This document shows positions 81-41,667 of a stretch of 41,667 nt of DNA, one piece after another (within the stretch, counting starts at the first letter, position 1; each line of letters begins with the position of its first letter). The translations under genes were made by a program, and so were the position numbers. The DNA lies in IMG/VR virus record IMGVR_UViG_3300028400_000015, positions 1 to 41,667 of that record, one strand, 5' to 3'. Below the pieces are notes generated by a model. That model did not search any database. It saw only the letters and a list, made by a program, of their open reading frames with translations, and was not told the origin of the DNA. The stretch is from a virus.

Positions 81-200
81 CACCCTATACCCCGCGCCGC
101 CACAAAAAAGCCCGTCAATGGCTTTTTGCCGCGAAAATCGAATAGACCCAACCGTTTTTCAAATCGGACCAATTCCGACGGGGCAAAAGTCGGCCGGCGC

Positions 201-349
201 GGTAACAGGGTAACACCCTTCCCTATAGAGCTATAAAAATACCCACTATTTTTTCCTATTCCTAAAAAATTACAAAAAAATGTCACTAAATAATTATATA
301 AAATATATACCCTACAACATAGACTATTGGGGTATGTTACCCTGTTACC
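201..349. repeat. Perfect 15-bp inverted repeat flanking an AT-rich island
   Basis: The left arm ggtaacagggtaaca (201-215) and right arm tgttaccctgttacc (335-349) are exact reverse complements. Each arm contains two half-sites of the GTAACA box. The spacer is dominated by A and T. Confidence 0.9.
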
Positions 350-408
350 AGAAACTTCAAATTTTTGCGAAACCCGCACCACACAAGGCTTTCGGAAGGT
401 CGCCCATC

Positions 409-435
409 GGTAACACCCTCGCCACGGGTGTTACC
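409..435. repeat. 10-bp inverted repeat, 7-nt spacer
   Basis: GGTAACACCC (409-418) and GGGTGTTACC (426-435) are perfect reverse complements separated by tcgccac. No T-run follows, so a protein-binding site is more likely than a terminator. Confidence 0.9.
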
Positions 436-495
436 ACCCCGTTACCGCCCTTTTTGCAAGAAATTTGCAGAAAAACATCGCCCGCAAAAATTAGC

Positions 496-532
496 GGTAA
501 CACCCAAAACCGAAAAACGCCAGGGTGTTACC
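496..532. repeat. 10-bp inverted repeat, 17-nt spacer
   Basis: This is the same box pair as at 409-435: GGTAACACCC at 496-505 and GGGTGTTACC at 523-532, with a 17-nt spacer. Reuse of identical arms with different spacers suggests that a protein recognises the arms, rather than an RNA hairpin. Confidence 0.9.
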
Positions 533-560
533 GCCGCCACACCACCGAAACCCGCTCAAC

Positions 561-583
561 AAAAAGGCGGCCAATGCCGCCTT
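561..583 (-). terminator. Rho-independent terminator of the leftward replication operon
   Basis: On the minus strand the 8-bp stem AAGGCGGC/GCCGCCTT with a 4-nt loop is followed by a T-run. It begins about 30 nt beyond the stop codon of the primase-helicase gene, as expected for the end of the leftward operon. Confidence 0.8.
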
Positions 584-613
584 CCTGCCAAAATTGACTT
601 CATTTCCAGCCGC

Positions 614-2953
614 CTACTTCCCGAAAGGCAGAACCTTACCCGTTGTGTCACCATTAAGTCGCAATTCCTCTTTAATATCAGACACTTGCACATCGTCCTT
701 TTCCCACTTTTCCCAGTTCCTGAGCACCCACGGGCGCACTGGCGCACCGCCTGCCTTGATCTGTTTCCCGCCCAGCGCAGGCACTCGGCGCCCGCGCTTC
801 GACAGCACGGCTTTCAGTACCCGGTCCAGCAGGTCGCCGTCGGGGATGTCGTAGCCGCCCCGGTTGACCCGTCGGAACACGAACGCCCGCCACTGCGCCA
901 GGGTGCAGAGTTCGCCCTTCGCGTCCTGCACCCATTCGTCGAACAGCACATCGACATCGTTGCGCGAGGATTCGATCATGGCTTCCTTCGCCGGTGTCAT
1001 CATCGGCTCGCCGTTCGGCTGGTACCGCACTTCGCGCGCCATCAGCCACTGGTACAGCCCGGCCACAAACGAGTCTTGCTGCCAGGCGTGATGCACGCGC
1101 AGCATCAGGTTGCCCTCGGCGTCCGCCAATGGCACCCGGCCGTTTTCCAGCACCAGCAGCCGCCGGTCGCCGTGGGGGATGGCCAGGGCATCCTCGTGAT
1201 TGGTAGAGATCAGCACCGACGAAAAAACCTTCTCGTGGCTGTTGCGCCCGAACTTGCGTTTTACCAGCACTTCCTTGTCGCCGGGGTCGCATAGGTCTTT
1301 CAGGTGCTCATAGGCCGACGCCCGCGCATAGTAGCGACTGCGATCCTGTTCCAGTTCCAGCGCCTCGGGCACGGTCAGGATCAGCGACCCGGCCAGGTAC
1401 TCGTTGAAGGTGGCCTGGCCATGCCCGCCGGTGAGGTCGTTCAATGGCACTTCGCGCACGTATTCGCCGCCGAACAGCCGTTTCAGCAGCTTGCCCAGCG
1501 TCCCGCGCCCGACGCCGAACACGGGCGTCACCATCACCACGGCATGCAGGCGCTGCCACGGCTCGCGCAGCTTCACCGCGAGCCAGTCCAGAAACAGCTC
1601 GCGCTCGGCGTCCCTCGGCAGCAGGTGGGTCATGAATCGCTCGAACACGTCCCTGTCTTCCAGCGACCATAGCGATCCCTTCCAGTCGTGCCACATGGGC
1701 CTGCAGTAGGTATTGAACACGATCTGCAAGCCTTCCTGAATGAACGCATCATCCGGGTGATCCGGGCGCAGCTCGGCGCGGTCGGCTCGGGCGGTCTGGG
1801 GGTGGGCCTTCCATTCGTCCACGGCGAGCACGGTGCGGTCGGGCTGCGCCTTAGTCGGCGCATCAATGGTCAGGTGGGAGTTCTTGAGACGGAAGCCTTC
1901 AAAGGTGAACGCATGCGCCGGGGCCTCGATATAGCGCACGGTCTTGTCGGCCAGCAGGACGTAGGTTTTCAGAAGATAGCGCAGGCAGTCGGGAGTGCTG
2001 TCGAGCAGGTCCAGATCGTCAGCGTCCTTCCCCTCGGCTATGACCACCTCGGCAGCCCGTTCCAGCGCCTCGGTCAGCCCGTTCGGCATAACCTGCTCGA
2101 AGTGCGTCACGTCGCGTGGAAAATCGTGACAGCATGCTTCCCGCGAGCCTTCGGCCAGGTAGCAGTGGATACCGCCGGAATCGCCGAATTCGCCATCCTC
2201 GCGGCGCATGTTGAGCATGACGCCCTGTTCGTCAAGGGTGGGTTTCAGCTCCGACCAGGTGACAATGGCGCCGTTCGGGTCGAGGAATTCGGTATCGGGC
2301 GAGAGATCGTAGAGGTGGCGCACAGACCGGCCGTTGCCGAGCGACATGCCGCGGGACACTCGCGGCCAGCCGTGCGCGTCCAGGTGCTTCGTGATGGCGT
2401 CCATGATCCGCTGCGCCTGGCCGCTGTCCAGCGCCGGCAGGCTGCTGATCTTGTGATGCAATGGTTCTTCGCTGTCCCAGTAGTAGGGCTTGCCGGTGCC
2501 CGGGTGAGTGCCGTAGGCGGCGAACTGGCGGCCGCTGCCGGCCAGCAGCTCGACCATGTGGATTTCCCCGTCCTCGCCTTCGTAGCGGGGCGTTCGGGAG
2601 GACGGTATCGCGGTACCCGTGCGCCGAAACAGCAAAAGCCGCTTCGGGTACCGGCCGATCCGGCAATAGTCGGTGCCGCCGGTTTCCTCGCAGATCAGAT
2701 CGTCGATGGCGTCGGCCACGTCTTCGTCGAGGATGTCGATGTCGAAGGCGAGCAAATCGTCGCAGCGCAGGCCCGTGTTCGGCATGGACCGGGATCGGGC
2801 AAAGCGTTTGAGCCACTTGGCGTCTATTTTCTCGCGCGACCAGCCTTTGATGAAAATACCCTTGTCGCGAAGGGGGAGGGGAACGAAACCGTTGCGCAAC
2901 AGCTTGTTGCGAATATCCGCTGGTTTCATGCTATCATTGTTGTCGTCTGTCAT
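614..2953 (-). CDS. Primase-helicase: N-terminal prim-pol domain, C-terminal DUF5906/D5-type ATPase
   Basis: Probable bifunctional replication protein of 779 aa. The N-terminal third resembles archaeo-eukaryotic primase/prim-pol domains: an F-D-I-D segment near residues 70-73 supplies the acidic metal-binding pair, followed by a GRQFAAYGTHPGTGKPYYW segment. The C-terminal half resembles the superfamily 3 ATPase of DUF5906/VirE-type phage proteins, which unwinds DNA. Its P-loop, near residue 480, reads GVGRGT, with arginine where lysine is usual; GDRR further on may give the arginine finger. An in-frame ATG at 2971 would add six residues, but GAGG lies 8 nt before the ATG at 2953, so I chose that. 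It is the last gene of the leftward operon and is preceded closely by a hairpin terminator. Confidence 0.85.
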   Translation of the reverse strand: MTDDNNDSMKPADIRNKLLRNGFVPLPLRDKGIFIKGWSREKIDAKWLKRFARSRSMPNTGLRCDDLLAFDIDILDEDVADAIDDLICEETGGTDYCRIGRYPKRLLLFRRTGTAIPSSRTPRYEGEDGEIHMVELLAGSGRQFAAYGTHPGTGKPYYWDSEEPLHHKISSLPALDSGQAQRIMDAITKHLDAHGWPRVSRGMSLGNGRSVRHLYDLSPDTEFLDPNGAIVTWSELKPTLDEQGVMLNMRREDGEFGDSGGIHCYLAEGSREACCHDFPRDVTHFEQVMPNGLTEALERAAEVVIAEGKDADDLDLLDSTPDCLRYLLKTYVLLADKTVRYIEAPAHAFTFEGFRLKNSHLTIDAPTKAQPDRTVLAVDEWKAHPQTARADRAELRPDHPDDAFIQEGLQIVFNTYCRPMWHDWKGSLWSLEDRDVFERFMTHLLPRDAERELFLDWLAVKLREPWQRLHAVVMVTPVFGVGRGTLGKLLKRLFGGEYVREVPLNDLTGGHGQATFNEYLAGSLILTVPEALELEQDRSRYYARASAYEHLKDLCDPGDKEVLVKRKFGRNSHEKVFSSVLISTNHEDALAIPHGDRRLLVLENGRVPLADAEGNLMLRVHHAWQQDSFVAGLYQWLMAREVRYQPNGEPMMTPAKEAMIESSRNDVDVLFDEWVQDAKGELCTLAQWRAFVFRRVNRGGYDIPDGDLLDRVLKAVLSKRGRRVPALGGKQIKAGGAPVRPWVLRNWEKWEKDDVQVSDIKEELRLNGDTTGKVLPFGK

Positions 2954-3070: not shown

Positions 3071-3496
3071 TTAATCGTTTCTGTCCGGTGTTACAGCCTG
3101 CATTGCCGCCCCAGTATTACCCCGGAAATCAATATCCGGCAGTATCGCTTGTGGTTTGAATGTGCGCCGGTAGTGATATACATTGATTGGTACGGGGGCC
3201 ATTTGTTCTACGAAATAGACTGTGTTATCTGATTTGCCGTAGAAATTCCTGATGTATTGGCCTTCGCCAACCTTACAGATAACCGAAGTTCTGAGTGGTC
3301 CTGGCTCTACTGAGCATCTGCCTTCTGTCACCAATACGATCTTGTCAGTGATAGAGTTGTAAAAGACAATTCGGCGCATTATCTCGAAGTTGTCTGCCGC
3401 TTTTGTCAGGTTGTGTTGCGCCACATCCGCATCGTCGCACCCTGCAAGTAGGATTAAGGGCAACATCGGTAACAGCATAAATAGCTTCTTTTTCAT
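3071..3496 (-). CDS. Small phage lipoprotein, beta-sandwich lipoprotein type
   Basis: This 141-aa protein begins with a lipoprotein signal: charged MKKK, a hydrophobic stretch, then the lipobox LAGC with the lipidated cysteine at residue 20. Mature segments such as LTKAADNFEIMRRIVFYNSITDKI and YHYRRTFKPQAILPDIDFR (quoted only as landmarks: residues 31-54 and 107-125) match my memory of phage proteins annotated beta-sandwich lipoprotein. Membrane-anchored phage lipoproteins often block superinfection; that role is inference here. AGGTGA precedes the start by about 6 nt. The gene is separated from the primase by a strong terminator. Confidence 0.7.
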   Translation of the reverse strand: MKKKLFMLLPMLPLILLAGCDDADVAQHNLTKAADNFEIMRRIVFYNSITDKIVLVTEGRCSVEPGPLRTSVICKVGEGQYIRNFYGKSDNTVYFVEQMAPVPINVYHYRRTFKPQAILPDIDFRGNTGAAMQAVTPDRND

Positions 3497-6124: not shown

Positions 6125-6943
6125 CTAGGCGGGCCAGCCCGCGGCCGCCCGGATAAATTCGGCGGCTACTTGCGGGACGATGGCATTCCCGTACCCGCGC
6201 AGGCGTCCCACTCGGGCGGGTAGCCCATGACCCATCGGGAATGTGCCGGGTTCAACAGGCCGCCACTTTCCATCCCGGCAGAACAGCCAGTCAGCAGCTC
6301 GCCAGAAAATGTCAGCCTTGCCGGCGTTGTCAGCGCAGCTTGTCGCGGCATCTGATCCACTCTCGTTCGCCCGTCCTTCCTCTGAGTCGTCATACCCGGG
6401 GTGTCTTTCCAGTCCCTCGAATTTGCTGTCACCCACCCACCGCGCCGTAAACCATAGTCGCTGCCGGATGTGCGGCGCGCCGACGCTACAAGCCGGGGCA
6501 ACTGCCGCCCCGCAGGCGTATCCTGCGTCTTCCAGCGCATCGAATAGAGAATCAAGCCATCCGTCTTTGATAACGGCTGTCGCAACCTGTTCCCCAAAAA
6601 CCGTTGCAGGTCGGCACTCGCGCACGAGATCGAGGAAAACCGGCGCGAGGTGCCGTTCATCGTCAACGCCTTTTCCGAGTCCCGCGCTGCTGAAAGGCTG
6701 GCAGGGCGGGCTTCCAGTCCACACGGGTCTGTCGTCCGGCCATCCAGCGAGTCGGAGGGCGTGGCTCCATCCGCCGATTCCGGCGAAGAAATGGCATTGC
6801 ATGTAACCTTTGAGGTCATTCGGTGTCACCTCCGATATGCTTCGTTCGTCAACATCCCCGTCGGCGATAAGCCCTTTGCGGATCAGCTGGCGCAGCCAGG
6901 CAGCCGCGAACGGGTCGAATTCGTTGTAGTAGGCTCCGCTCAT
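6125..6943 (-). CDS. C5 cytosine DNA methyltransferase
   Basis: This 272-aa enzyme is predicted to transfer a methyl group from S-adenosylmethionine to C5 of cytosine in DNA. The motifs are in canonical order: FAGIGG (motif I, residues 53-58), GSPPCQPFSSAG (motif IV, catalytic Cys81), GEQV in place of the usual ENV (motif VI, glutamate kept), RQRLWF (motif VIII) and GNAIVPQVA near the C-terminus (motif X). The target-recognition part is short, so the enzyme is compact. No partner restriction enzyme is visible, so protection of phage DNA from host restriction is the likely role. The ATG at 6943 overlaps the upstream stop as ATGA. Confidence 0.9.
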   Translation of the reverse strand: MSGAYYNEFDPFAAAWLRQLIRKGLIADGDVDERSISEVTPNDLKGYMQCHFFAGIGGWSHALRLAGWPDDRPVWTGSPPCQPFSSAGLGKGVDDERHLAPVFLDLVRECRPATVFGEQVATAVIKDGWLDSLFDALEDAGYACGAAVAPACSVGAPHIRQRLWFTARWVGDSKFEGLERHPGYDDSEEGRANESGSDAATSCADNAGKADIFWRAADWLFCRDGKWRPVEPGTFPMGHGLPARVGRLRGYGNAIVPQVAAEFIRAAAGWPA

Positions 6944-30301: not shown

Positions 30302-31879
30302 CTATACCAGGTGATCGTAAGTAGGTAGCAGCGTCGTATTGCCGCCGAATGCTTTTTCCGCGATGTAACGGCGTCCCGTCCGGTGGCTGCGCGCCTGTTC
30401 CGCCCAGGTGTGCCGTTCGCCGTTGTAGCCCTGGGCAAACTGCCGGATGGCGTCAGCGCCGTGGCACCCCCAGTTCTTCGCCGGGATTTGCCGCGTCACC
30501 TTGCCCACGGCATCCCAGGTCCACTCGTATGCCATTAGCGCGCGCAGCCCCTCAGCGCAGCCTTCTTCGTCGAAATAGCACAGGGAAAACGCCTTGCGCA
30601 TCAGCTCGATGCCGTCGTTCAGAACCCGCGGCTTCGGCACGACTTCTATGGGCCGCACCCCGGCGCTTTCCAGAATCTCTCGCCGAGATTCGCTGAATTC
30701 GCTGGAAATGTCCACCACCTCGACATCGTGCGGCAGAAAGTGCCTGCCGTAGAACCATCCGTGTTCTTCCTTCATTTCACGCAGCAGATCGGCGTAGTAG
30801 GTTAAATCGCGCAGGCGGTCCTGATGGTACTTCACGAAATGGTGCTTGCCGCTGACTTCCTGATGGAACCATATCGCCGTGTAGTCGTTGCGCCCCAAGT
30901 CCCAGAACGTATTGACGGGAACGCCGCGGGCAATCGGCAACTTCGTGATCCGGCCTTCGCGCCGCGCGTCGCGCAGCTGCTGGCCGTATATCATCAGTTC
31001 GGTGTTGCGCTCGAAGGCTTCCGCCGGCGTGGACGGGTATTCCTGCTTCATCTTGTCCGTCTGTTCGGCCGCCTTTTTCACGTACCAGTTCTTTTGCTTC
31101 CGGTTCAGGCTGATGCCGTGCTGTTCCTTGAGATCGCGGAAATACAGTTCCAGCTTTTCGTCGATCTCCACATCGTCTTCCAGCTTGTAATCTGGATGTT
31201 TCCACCACGGGAAGAAAAAGAATTTCCAATCCATCTTCGTGAAGACGGCCTTTTTCTGGTTCACTTTTTCCAGCAGGTCTTCGCCCACCTTGCACATTTC
31301 GTAGAATTCGCCGAAAGGCCCTTCCGCCGTAGATTCAATGAAGGCGATCTGCCCCGGTACAATGGTGTTCAGAGTTCCAGTGATGACTTCCTCGGCTTTC
31401 TCGGGGAACCGGGCGCACATCTTCCCGAATTCCGAAATATGCACATACTGGTAGGTGCCGGACCGTAGCGACGTGCCCACGCGAATTTTCGACCCGTTAC
31501 TGAATTTCAGCGACCGCACGGTGTCGCTTTCAGCCGTTATCATCGCGCGCAGGTCTTCCGGCAGGTTATCGTAGGCGTACTTGATCTTGTCCTCGAAGAA
31601 TTCTTCGGCGTCCTCCCGGTTGTGGGCCACGATGCCCATACTCAGGTTGTCGTTGAACAGGGCGCGGTCCAGCATGAATATCTGGATGAAGGTGGTCAAA
31701 CCCATTTGCCGCGCTTTCAGGATCAGGTTCAGATACCACATATCCGAGTAGAGCGCGCGCTGCGCCCAGTTCAGCTTGAACCGAATTTTCTGACCCTGCT
31801 TATTCTTGATGAAATACAGGTTGTTGAGCCGCCACCAGGGGTCGGTCAGCTTCACGGCGAGGGCAGTTTTCGCTCCCAT
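30302..31879 (-). CDS. terL: Large terminase subunit
   Basis: This 525-aa packaging motor and nuclease shows a Walker A-like KARQMGLTT (residues 55-63), a Walker B-like IAFIESTAEG near 180, and a C-terminal RNase H-like nuclease domain beginning FWDLGRNDYTAIWF near 325, with a later aspartate in HGADAIRQF. The enzyme cuts concatemeric DNA and pumps it through the portal. It directly follows the small subunit gene and precedes the portal gene. GGGAG precedes the ATG. Confidence 0.9.
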   Translation of the reverse strand: MGAKTALAVKLTDPWWRLNNLYFIKNKQGQKIRFKLNWAQRALYSDMWYLNLILKARQMGLTTFIQIFMLDRALFNDNLSMGIVAHNREDAEEFFEDKIKYAYDNLPEDLRAMITAESDTVRSLKFSNGSKIRVGTSLRSGTYQYVHISEFGKMCARFPEKAEEVITGTLNTIVPGQIAFIESTAEGPFGEFYEMCKVGEDLLEKVNQKKAVFTKMDWKFFFFPWWKHPDYKLEDDVEIDEKLELYFRDLKEQHGISLNRKQKNWYVKKAAEQTDKMKQEYPSTPAEAFERNTELMIYGQQLRDARREGRITKLPIARGVPVNTFWDLGRNDYTAIWFHQEVSGKHHFVKYHQDRLRDLTYYADLLREMKEEHGWFYGRHFLPHDVEVVDISSEFSESRREILESAGVRPIEVVPKPRVLNDGIELMRKAFSLCYFDEEGCAEGLRALMAYEWTWDAVGKVTRQIPAKNWGCHGADAIRQFAQGYNGERHTWAEQARSHRTGRRYIAEKAFGGNTTLLPTYDHLV

Positions 31880-31881
31880 GT

Positions 31882-32523
31882 TCAGCTCCCGTCAATGGGC
31901 GGCGGCAGGCCGTCCGTCTTGTTCGATGCCATTTTCAGGATGTCGGCCAGCTCGCCTTTTACGCCGTGGCTCACATCCACTTTGTCCCCGTATATCTTCG
32001 GCAGCAGCTTCGTGGCCAGCCATTTTCGCGTGTCGATGCGCAACCGGCTACGCTGCACCGTGTCGTTGTTCGGTACCCATCCGGTGAAATTCCCGGCGGC
32101 GTCGTAGGTCGGCTCCCAATCCTCGGAACGGTCATCCGCCAGGGTGATAATTTCCTCGATCAGCAGTTCGGCATAGACCCGCTTGGCGTAGTAGTACATT
32201 TCTCGGAAATCAGCCAGTTCCGGGTTCGCCAACCATTTCACCACCGTATTTGAGGATGGCATTTTCGGGTCTTTCGCGATTTCTTTCAGCGTCTCCCCGT
32301 GCATGATTCGCTCGCATATACGCCGCGCCACCGGGGCGCTGTAGGATGTCCCGACGTACTGGCGAACCTTGCTTCGCGGCGGGGGGCCGGCGAAGCTGGC
32401 CGGTTCGGGGATTCCCCGCTTGCCCGGCGTCAGGGCGTGCTGCTCCCCGTACTTCTCGAAAAATTCCTCGCTCGGGTACGGGTTCAGCGTAGGCCGCTTG
32501 TTTTGTGACGCCCGATTGCTCAT
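31882..32523 (-). CDS. terS: Small terminase subunit, Sf6 gp1-like
   Basis: This 213-aa protein recognises the packaging site. A helix-turn-helix region reads RRICERIMHGETLKEIAKDP and SNTVVKWLANPELADF. It is followed by YYYAKRVYAELLIEEIITLA and the signature RSRLRIDTRKWLATKLLPKI, familiar from Sf6-type small terminases. It sits immediately before the large subunit, and its start overlaps the holin stop as ATGA. Confidence 0.85.
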   Translation of the reverse strand: MSNRASQNKRPTLNPYPSEEFFEKYGEQHALTPGKRGIPEPASFAGPPPRSKVRQYVGTSYSAPVARRICERIMHGETLKEIAKDPKMPSSNTVVKWLANPELADFREMYYYAKRVYAELLIEEIITLADDRSEDWEPTYDAAGNFTGWVPNNDTVQRSRLRIDTRKWLATKLLPKIYGDKVDVSHGVKGELADILKMASNKTDGLPPPIDGS

Positions 32524-38749: not shown

Positions 38750-38847
38750 GCCGACAGCACCCCTCCAAAATACAGCGCCAACAGGATGAATATCGCGATG
38801 GATATTACCTCCCTGACCAGTAGCCCGATCAGCTTTTTTGTCCGCAC
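38746..38847 (-). CDS. 33-aa membrane peptide, first gene of the late operon
   Basis: The translation begins MRTKKLIGLLVREVISIAIF and ends ALYFGGVLSA, giving one transmembrane helix after a basic N-terminus. The GTG start at 38845-38847 is preceded by AGGG; the stop overlaps the holin start as ATGA. Small membrane peptides next to holins can act as holin partners or antiholins, but this is inference. Confidence 0.65.
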   Translation of the reverse strand: MRTKKLIGLLVREVISIAIFILLALYFGGVLSA

Positions 38848-38855
38848 TGTCACGC

Positions 38856-38888
38856 CCTTTTCACTGTGTCACCTTTTCAGTGTGCCAC
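38856..38888. repeat. Tandem 16-bp direct repeats before the late operon
   Basis: CTTTTCACTGTGTCAC (38857-38872) is followed immediately by CTTTTCAGTGTGCCAC (38873-38888), two mismatches in 16. They lie 10-41 nt upstream of the first late start codon, where an activator or repressor of late transcription could bind. Confidence 0.85.
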
Positions 38889-38899
38889 GGCCCGCTCCG

Positions 38900-38963
38900 A
38901 AACGCAAAATCAGGGCCTTAAAACCCGCAAATTTTTTGTAAAAATTTTCGCGGTTTTGCGTTT
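38900..38963. repeat. 64-bp AT-rich near-palindrome
   Basis: The outer arms aaacgcaaaa (38900-38909) and ttttgcgttt (38954-38963) are perfect reverse complements. Inside, aaaacccgcaaattttt and aaaaattttcgcggtttt match with single-base slips around a short loop near 38938. The structure could extrude as a cruciform or serve as a binding or origin element. It is not followed by a typical terminator T-run. Confidence 0.8.
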
Positions 38964-39157
38964 ATGGGGTGCGGTTTCTGGTGTGTCTGGTAAGGGGTGT
39001 GGGTCTAGGATTTCGGGGTAATGTTCTCGTTTTCTTCTCAGGGTTCAGTTTCAAAAAATTTGCGAAAGCGCGAGTGGAGTCCCACGGCCGAAGCCACCCC
39101 CACAAAACTCAGAAAACCCCCCGCACCCCCTTCTTGCCTGGAAAATCGACCGCACCA

Positions 39158-39199
39158 CTGAACCCGAACAGCTGAACCCGAACAGCTGAACCCGAACAC
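39158..39199. repeat. Three tandem 14-bp repeats
   Basis: Three adjacent copies of ctgaacccgaacag lie at 39158-39171, 39172-39185 and 39186-39199; the last ends in ac rather than ag. They directly precede the GAGGC microsatellite. They could be iterons or slippage products. Confidence 0.9.
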
Positions 39200-39203
39200 C
39201 ATC

Positions 39204-39248
39204 GAGGCGAGGCGAGGCGAGGCGAGGCGAGGCGAGGCGAGGCGAGGA
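39204..39248. repeat. GAGGC pentanucleotide microsatellite
   Basis: Eight exact copies of GAGGC run from 39204 to 39243, followed by one GAGGA. The array is strand-asymmetric (G-rich on plus). Copy number may vary between isolates. Confidence 0.95.
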
Positions 39249-39467
39249 CGCGCCGGAAAGCTGCAAGGTTTTTGCAGTGTCCTGGCAGCCGTGTGGTGCT
39301 GCCGTGTGGCTACCAGGCGCGCAGATCGAGGGATCAGGGGTATGGTGTGCGGAGTGTGGATGGTGGATTTTGCTTTAAGAATCAAGGGGTTAGGTAACGG
39401 GCGCGAGGGGCGGAACGCTTCGATAGTCTGTCTCTATCGGGTCTCAATTTTCGATAAAAATTTGTTA

Positions 39468-39496
39468 TTTTGATATACAAATGAATACACTATAAT
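39468..39496 (+). promoter_or_regulatory. Rightward early promoter
   Basis: TTTTGA (39468-39473), a 17-nt spacer and consensus TATAAT (39491-39496) form a strong sigma70 promoter about 35 nt before the first early start codon. The overlapping TTGATATACAAATG matches the block in the two leftward sites at 6062-6097 and 12646-12681, suggesting shared control. Confidence 0.7.
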
Positions 39497-39530
39497 CGGC
39501 ACTCCACACCATGAAAAACGAGGCTAGACC

Positions 39531-41538: not shown

Positions 41539-41568
41539 AAGGCGCGCCCTGTACCGGGCGCGCCTTTT
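41539..41568 (+). terminator. Terminator of the rightward early operon
   Basis: An 11-bp perfect stem, aaggcgcgccc/gggcgcgcctt, with a 6-nt loop is followed by further T residues. It lies directly after the last early gene and before the right-end repeat array. Confidence 0.9.
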
Positions 41569-41573
41569 CTCGC

Positions 41574-41667
41574 GCCCTGGACGCCCTCAAGCCGCCCTGG
41601 ACGCCCTCAAGCCGCCCTGGCCGCCCTCAAGCCGCCCTGACCGCCCTCAAGCCGCCCTGACCGCCCT
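41574..41667. repeat. Right-end 20-bp tandem repeat array
   Basis: A partial unit (41574-41584) is followed by four units of the same 20-bp repeat as the left end, at 41585-41604, 41605-41624, 41625-41644 and 41645-41664, then cct. Copies differ near their ends (ggacgc, ggccgc, gaccgc). The final cct equals the first three bases of the window, so the array continues across the junction. Confidence 0.95.

Follow-up and report, generated by a model that had tools for sequence, protein, structure and literature searches.

The window analysed here is the whole stretch of viral DNA, 41,667 nucleotides in length, and the array of GGTAACA boxes at positions 196-534 is, with a probability that we put at about 0.88, a phage replication origin whose boxes are read by the C-terminal winged helix of the adjacent primase-helicase. 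Binding, strand opening and initiation at the array are steps that we infer. The original prediction had offered two readings of the region, a replication origin with iterons or a cluster of sites for an unknown DNA-binding protein. Gene order, arrays beside homologous primases, and covariation of the box word with a hairpin of the protein now make the iteron origin the best reading, and the unknown protein has a named candidate in the adjacent primase-helicase. The type of origin is most likely that of P4, SaPIs and PICIs, an iteron origin of a kind already known from phage satellites. An otherwise unstudied phage group is thus provided with a concrete origin and an initiator candidate.

The array is composed of inverted repeats, all of which turned out to be exact as originally described. 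The longest is a 15-bp repeat (201-215 and 335-349) with arms separated by 119 nt, and two perfect 10-bp pairs lie to its right (409-418/426-435 and 496-505/523-532). Two features had been overlooked. First, the arms of the long repeat contain two boxes each, at a spacing of 8 bp: the inner left pair (201-218, plus strand) has GGTAACA at 201-207 and 209-215, and the inner right pair (335-349, minus strand) appears as TGTTACC at 335-341 and 343-349. Second, a degenerate ninth box with one mismatch, GGTAACG on the minus strand, is found at 440-446, 11 bp from its neighbour. The outer inverted pair (409-435) is formed by GGTAACACCC at 409-418 on the plus strand and 426-435 on the minus strand. 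The same unit recurs in the second outer pair at 496-505 (plus) and 523-532 (minus), where the arms lengthen to a perfect 12 bp (494-505/523-534), so that the pair spans 494-534. GGTAACA occurs 10 times in the whole record against 2.05 copies expected from shuffles, a clustering far beyond chance; eight of the ten copies fall at 201-532 (Poisson P of about 2e-19 for eight in 350 bp).

Enclosed by the inner pairs is an island (216-334, no strand assigned) with an AT content of 73%, as compared with 40% for the genome, which is a putative strand-opening site. The earlier description of this stretch as very AT-rich was borne out: positions 226-310 reach 81% AT, and the 100 bp at 223-322 have the lowest stability in the genome (stacking -107; mean -154.5, sd 8.2). 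Among 27 non-redundant GGTAACA arrays, the window included, the spacer between facing box pairs was AT-richer than its own contig in all 27. The GC skew of the record was uninformative.

Once the ends of the record are joined, two operons converge on the array, with minus-strand genes arriving from the right and plus-strand early genes from the left. The array does lie past the replication-operon terminator, as had been claimed; this strong hairpin (558-589, minus strand, z -4.4) sits between the primase stop and the array, and across the gap a likewise strong terminator hairpin at 41539-41566 (plus strand) ends the converging early operon. The claim that this is the only long gap stands for convergent operons, yet a second long non-coding stretch exists at about 38770-39530, between divergent operons. 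There, upstream of the plus-strand early operon, positions 39158-39247 carry two short tandem repeats, with 2.9 copies of the 14-bp unit CTGAACCCGAACAG and nine copies of the 5-bp unit CGAGG. Both record ends (1-76 and 41573-41667) fall within one and the same tandem repeat of a 20-bp unit (CCTCAAGCCGCCCTGGACGC and variants), which makes a circular form plausible. The assembly probably broke inside this repeat, in a genome that is circular or circularly permuted.

As a rival reading, the array could be a cluster of hairpins or operators that act on the two converging transcripts, or a centromere. As RNA, the inverted pairs of 10 and 12 bp can form hairpins, and on the minus strand a U-rich stretch comes after the one at 494-534. 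However, better terminators precede the array in both operons, no promoter-like site was found in positions 1-700, and the ParA and ParB families were not found in the record. Moreover, hairpins leave the AT island, the facing box pairs and the covariation of box word and protein hairpin unexplained, and we regard a regulatory, terminator or partition cluster as very unlikely.

The initiator proposed under the origin reading is encoded at 614-2971 on the minus strand, and the terminator lies within the 81 bp that separate the last box (532) from the end of the gene (614). This primase-helicase of 785 residues comprises a Prim-Pol domain, a DUF5906 helicase and a C-terminal winged-helix-like domain, with Pfam matches to PF09250 (Prim-Pol) and PF19263. 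By profile, the best PDB match to its helicase region is the primase-helicase of phage NrS-1 (6k9e/6k9c, E 3e-35), with further matches to 7pds (SaPI PriRep1) and 7ola (SaPI5 Rep), and the modelled helicase core retrieves the same set of structures (NrS-1, PriRep1, SaPI5). The full-length AlphaFold model is poor (pLDDT 58) and interpretable for the helicase core only. In a model of the C-terminal domain, helices at 691-705 and 712-726 precede a hairpin at 738-745, an order of elements that suggests a winged helix. The matches of this model in the PDB are weak, all with E above 0.1, and several winged-helix proteins are among them. The predicted wing hairpin (codons 736-750, KQIKAGGAPVRPWVL; positions 722-766, minus strand) is proposed as the box-reading element on the strength of the model and of covariation in relatives.

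A search of related phages for the same pattern had been suggested in the original prediction, and it proved rewarding. With the primase of the window as single query, viral_contigs gave no match, and a nine-sequence primase profile yielded no conserved stretch. A four-sequence profile of homologs led to 66 loci, 64 of which were evaluable. An array was considered dense when one 7-mer, not preset, occurred at least 6 times within 600 bp 3' of the stop, and when this count exceeded that of every other 600-bp interval of the same locus. By this definition, 40 of the 64 evaluable homologs have a dense array 3' of the primase stop, which often begins 3-9 bp past the stop with the layout ++-++--+--. 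The box words drift among the homologs (GGTAACA, GGTGACG, GGTGGCA, GGTGTCA, GGTGACA, GGTTACA and GGTACC). Paired GGTAACA boxes flank an AT-rich island in the closest relative, L393 (35% identity), just as they do in the window. Repeated boxes of other words were seen by eye 3' of the primase in 606R2, YeP5, Jess A, phiAH14b and Mel-JY33. Other words follow the primase in the named relatives L155, L151, L153 and L154, for example ACCCGGGT, AGGTTGTCT, GGGGAACAG and ATTGCGTAGG. About a third of the homologs, such as the Chi-like phages, have no dense 7-mer array at this place, and no obvious boxes were seen by eye 3' of the primase of Chi.

The guess that the primase-helicase binds the boxes therefore has comparative support from these arrays, to which the covariation of box word and hairpin is added. 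Among 30 non-redundant homologs, identity over the last 110 residues follows the box word and not the identity of the rest of the protein (permutation p of 2e-4, a value that is optimistic since pairs of homologs share ancestry). The hairpin itself, of 17-18 residues, was compared in pairs of homologs with at least 90% identity outside it, and its divergence is 0.9% in same-word pairs (n=13) versus 43.5% in different-word pairs (n=31). L416 and L417, which differ in box word, are separated by 8 of 821 residues, four of them within the hairpin. At the position just ahead of [VI]K, all 13 GGTAACA relatives have Q or L, and all 16 others have K, R or A; the window, which is outside that set, has Q737 there. 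The relatives can be seen as a natural binding-specificity series, with at least six box words matched to versions of one hairpin, and origin recognition by primase-helicases becomes directly testable through the exchange of about 17 residues.

Given these relationships among the homologs, we lean towards the view that origin specificity in this phage group is an exchangeable cassette, in which the last ~50 codons of the primase-helicase, with the hairpin, recombine together with the array. Two cases look like an exchange of hairpin and array as a unit. L404 and L421 are 95% identical upstream and 93% identical downstream of a segment of about 400 bp, which starts 150 bp ahead of the stop, ends 250 bp past it, contains both hairpin and array, and is 72% identical. 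The array at L417:6457-6750 is a mosaic, with six GGTAACA boxes on the gene side and three GGTACC sites beyond them, at positions that agree with those of its sister L416 to within 1 bp. Exchange events are visible in the relatives and not in the window, which would be a member of the group with the GGTAACA reader. If the cassette is real, phages could acquire a new box word and evade replication interference in a single step, and the joint travel of hairpin and array would show how phages and satellites may escape mutual replication interference.

As for the mechanism, several copies of the primase-helicase would bind GGTAACA via the C-terminal winged helix, the beta-hairpin at about 736-750 reading the box. 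Binding on both sides of the island, at 201/209 facing 335/343, would allow hexameric helicases to open it, load onto the strands thus freed and prime bidirectional synthesis. The two outer inverted pairs (409-435 and 496-532) may provide extra binding sites or take part in copy-number regulation.

The window matches the origin kind of P4, SaPIs and PICIs in every feature for which the test gave a clear outcome: a primase-helicase lies beside the array, the array is directly 3' of the gene, and facing iterons surround an AT-rich region. P4 has the same order of gene (alpha), terminator (t-alpha) and array (crr), and the type I iterons of its crr and ori1 are short boxes in both orientations, with GGTGAACA in place of GGTAACA. 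However, P4 carries both crr and ori1 as cis elements and its primase is of the Toprim type, whereas the window has a single array of a 7-bp box and a Prim-Pol-type primase; a P4 replicon proper was ruled out on these differences. In phage lambda, the O iterons adjoin an AT-rich region; they sit inside the O gene, the initiator is a different one, and the helicase is recruited from the host. In SaPIs and PICIs, the ori is located directly 3' of rep, two sets of iterons lie on either side of an AT-rich region, and Rep recognises this ori through its C-terminal domain (PMC6092414, PMC7581432). The array in the window shares this layout, with its place 3' of the primase-helicase gene and its facing iteron sets around an AT-rich region. 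Nevertheless, SaPIs and PICIs are satellite elements that use other words, whereas the window, at 41.7 kb, is a phage that encodes a capsid, a portal and a DNA polymerase of its own. The ori region of EcCICFT073, a PICI of E. coli, has the same layout with boxes of the GGTAGACA type, and deletion of this ori lowered plasmid maintenance, with significantly reduced colony numbers. ORF904 of pRN1 combines a Prim-Pol, an SF3 helicase and a winged helix, and the origin lies just downstream of the gene (PMC4234260); unlike the array in the window, the pRN1 origin is a large stem-loop without iterons.

Beyond the primase homologs, a pattern of three GGTAACA boxes is present in at least 120 viral contigs, as compared with 21 for a reversed control word, and in at least 116 contigs of a genome collection covering varied bacterial phyla. 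This second set is partly due to chance, since 55 of its 116 listed matches have only three boxes. Among the matches listed, 42 of 85 viral arrays with at least five boxes have the stop codon of an ORF of 400 aa or more no further than 100 bp away, as against 0 of 21 control loci within this distance of a large-ORF stop. The large ORFs flanking arrays of at least five boxes are chiefly primase-helicases of several families, and DUF5906, VapE-like, Toprim, AAA_25 and Prim-Pol are the most frequent Pfam assignments of the large ORFs flanking arrays. A scan for GGTGACG also returned some primase-type arrays among the matches listed, so GGTAACA is one word of a family and not special. No relevant paper on the GGTAACA word itself was found among the literature matches listed. 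A second group of GGTAACA arrays is located within or adjacent to small-terminase genes and a third next to integrases; an origin can thus not be recognised from the word alone.

The second group raises the question of whether the boxes in the window are a pac/cos site, bound by the small terminase to start packaging. At L005:5297-5652, fifteen GGTAACA boxes lie inside a small-terminase-like gene and code for a GN/VT-rich linker; boxes are also found inside such genes in L109 and L123, possibly as a pac/cos site that uses the same word. GGTAACA also occurs about 95-130 bp upstream of genes of the small-terminase family phrog_51 in L018, L034, L067, L073, L104, L008 and L085, with arrays about 126 bp upstream in L034, L073, L018 and others. 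The terminase pair of the window is at 30302-32523, but its small terminase (31882-32523, Sf6 type) has no BLAST match to the small terminases of those loci, and the nearest GGTAACA box is more than 14 kb away. The genes common to the window and the array loci are, moreover, mostly replication genes, and we hold a packaging site here to be highly improbable.

Among bacterial genomes, L172, L181, L182, L193 and L213 have three GGTAACA boxes by the start of tyrosine-integrase-like ORFs, in one case inside, and these are possibly attP arm sites. For the window, an attP in which integrase arm-type sites flank a core is barely credible: some three-box arrays do adjoin tyrosine integrase genes and the P4 attP arms are close to crr, but neither a tyrosine integrase (PF00589) nor a large serine recombinase (PF07508) was found in the record, and the AT island with paired facing boxes resembles the primase-linked arrays instead. 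As the main function of the array, attP, pac/cos, partition and terminator were all rejected as fitting worse than an origin.

Three further observations concern other parts of the record. At 3071-3496 (minus strand), a protein of the Phage_VG64 family bears the PHROGs label recombination directionality factor, in a record in which no integrase was detected. The 155 bp at 6153-6307 share about 86% identity with DNA methyltransferase genes of Escherichia phage K1G-like phages; for a stretch that is otherwise unmatched, this similarity is unusually high. Lastly, positions 6456-6805 show a 76% match to Komagataeibacter phages.
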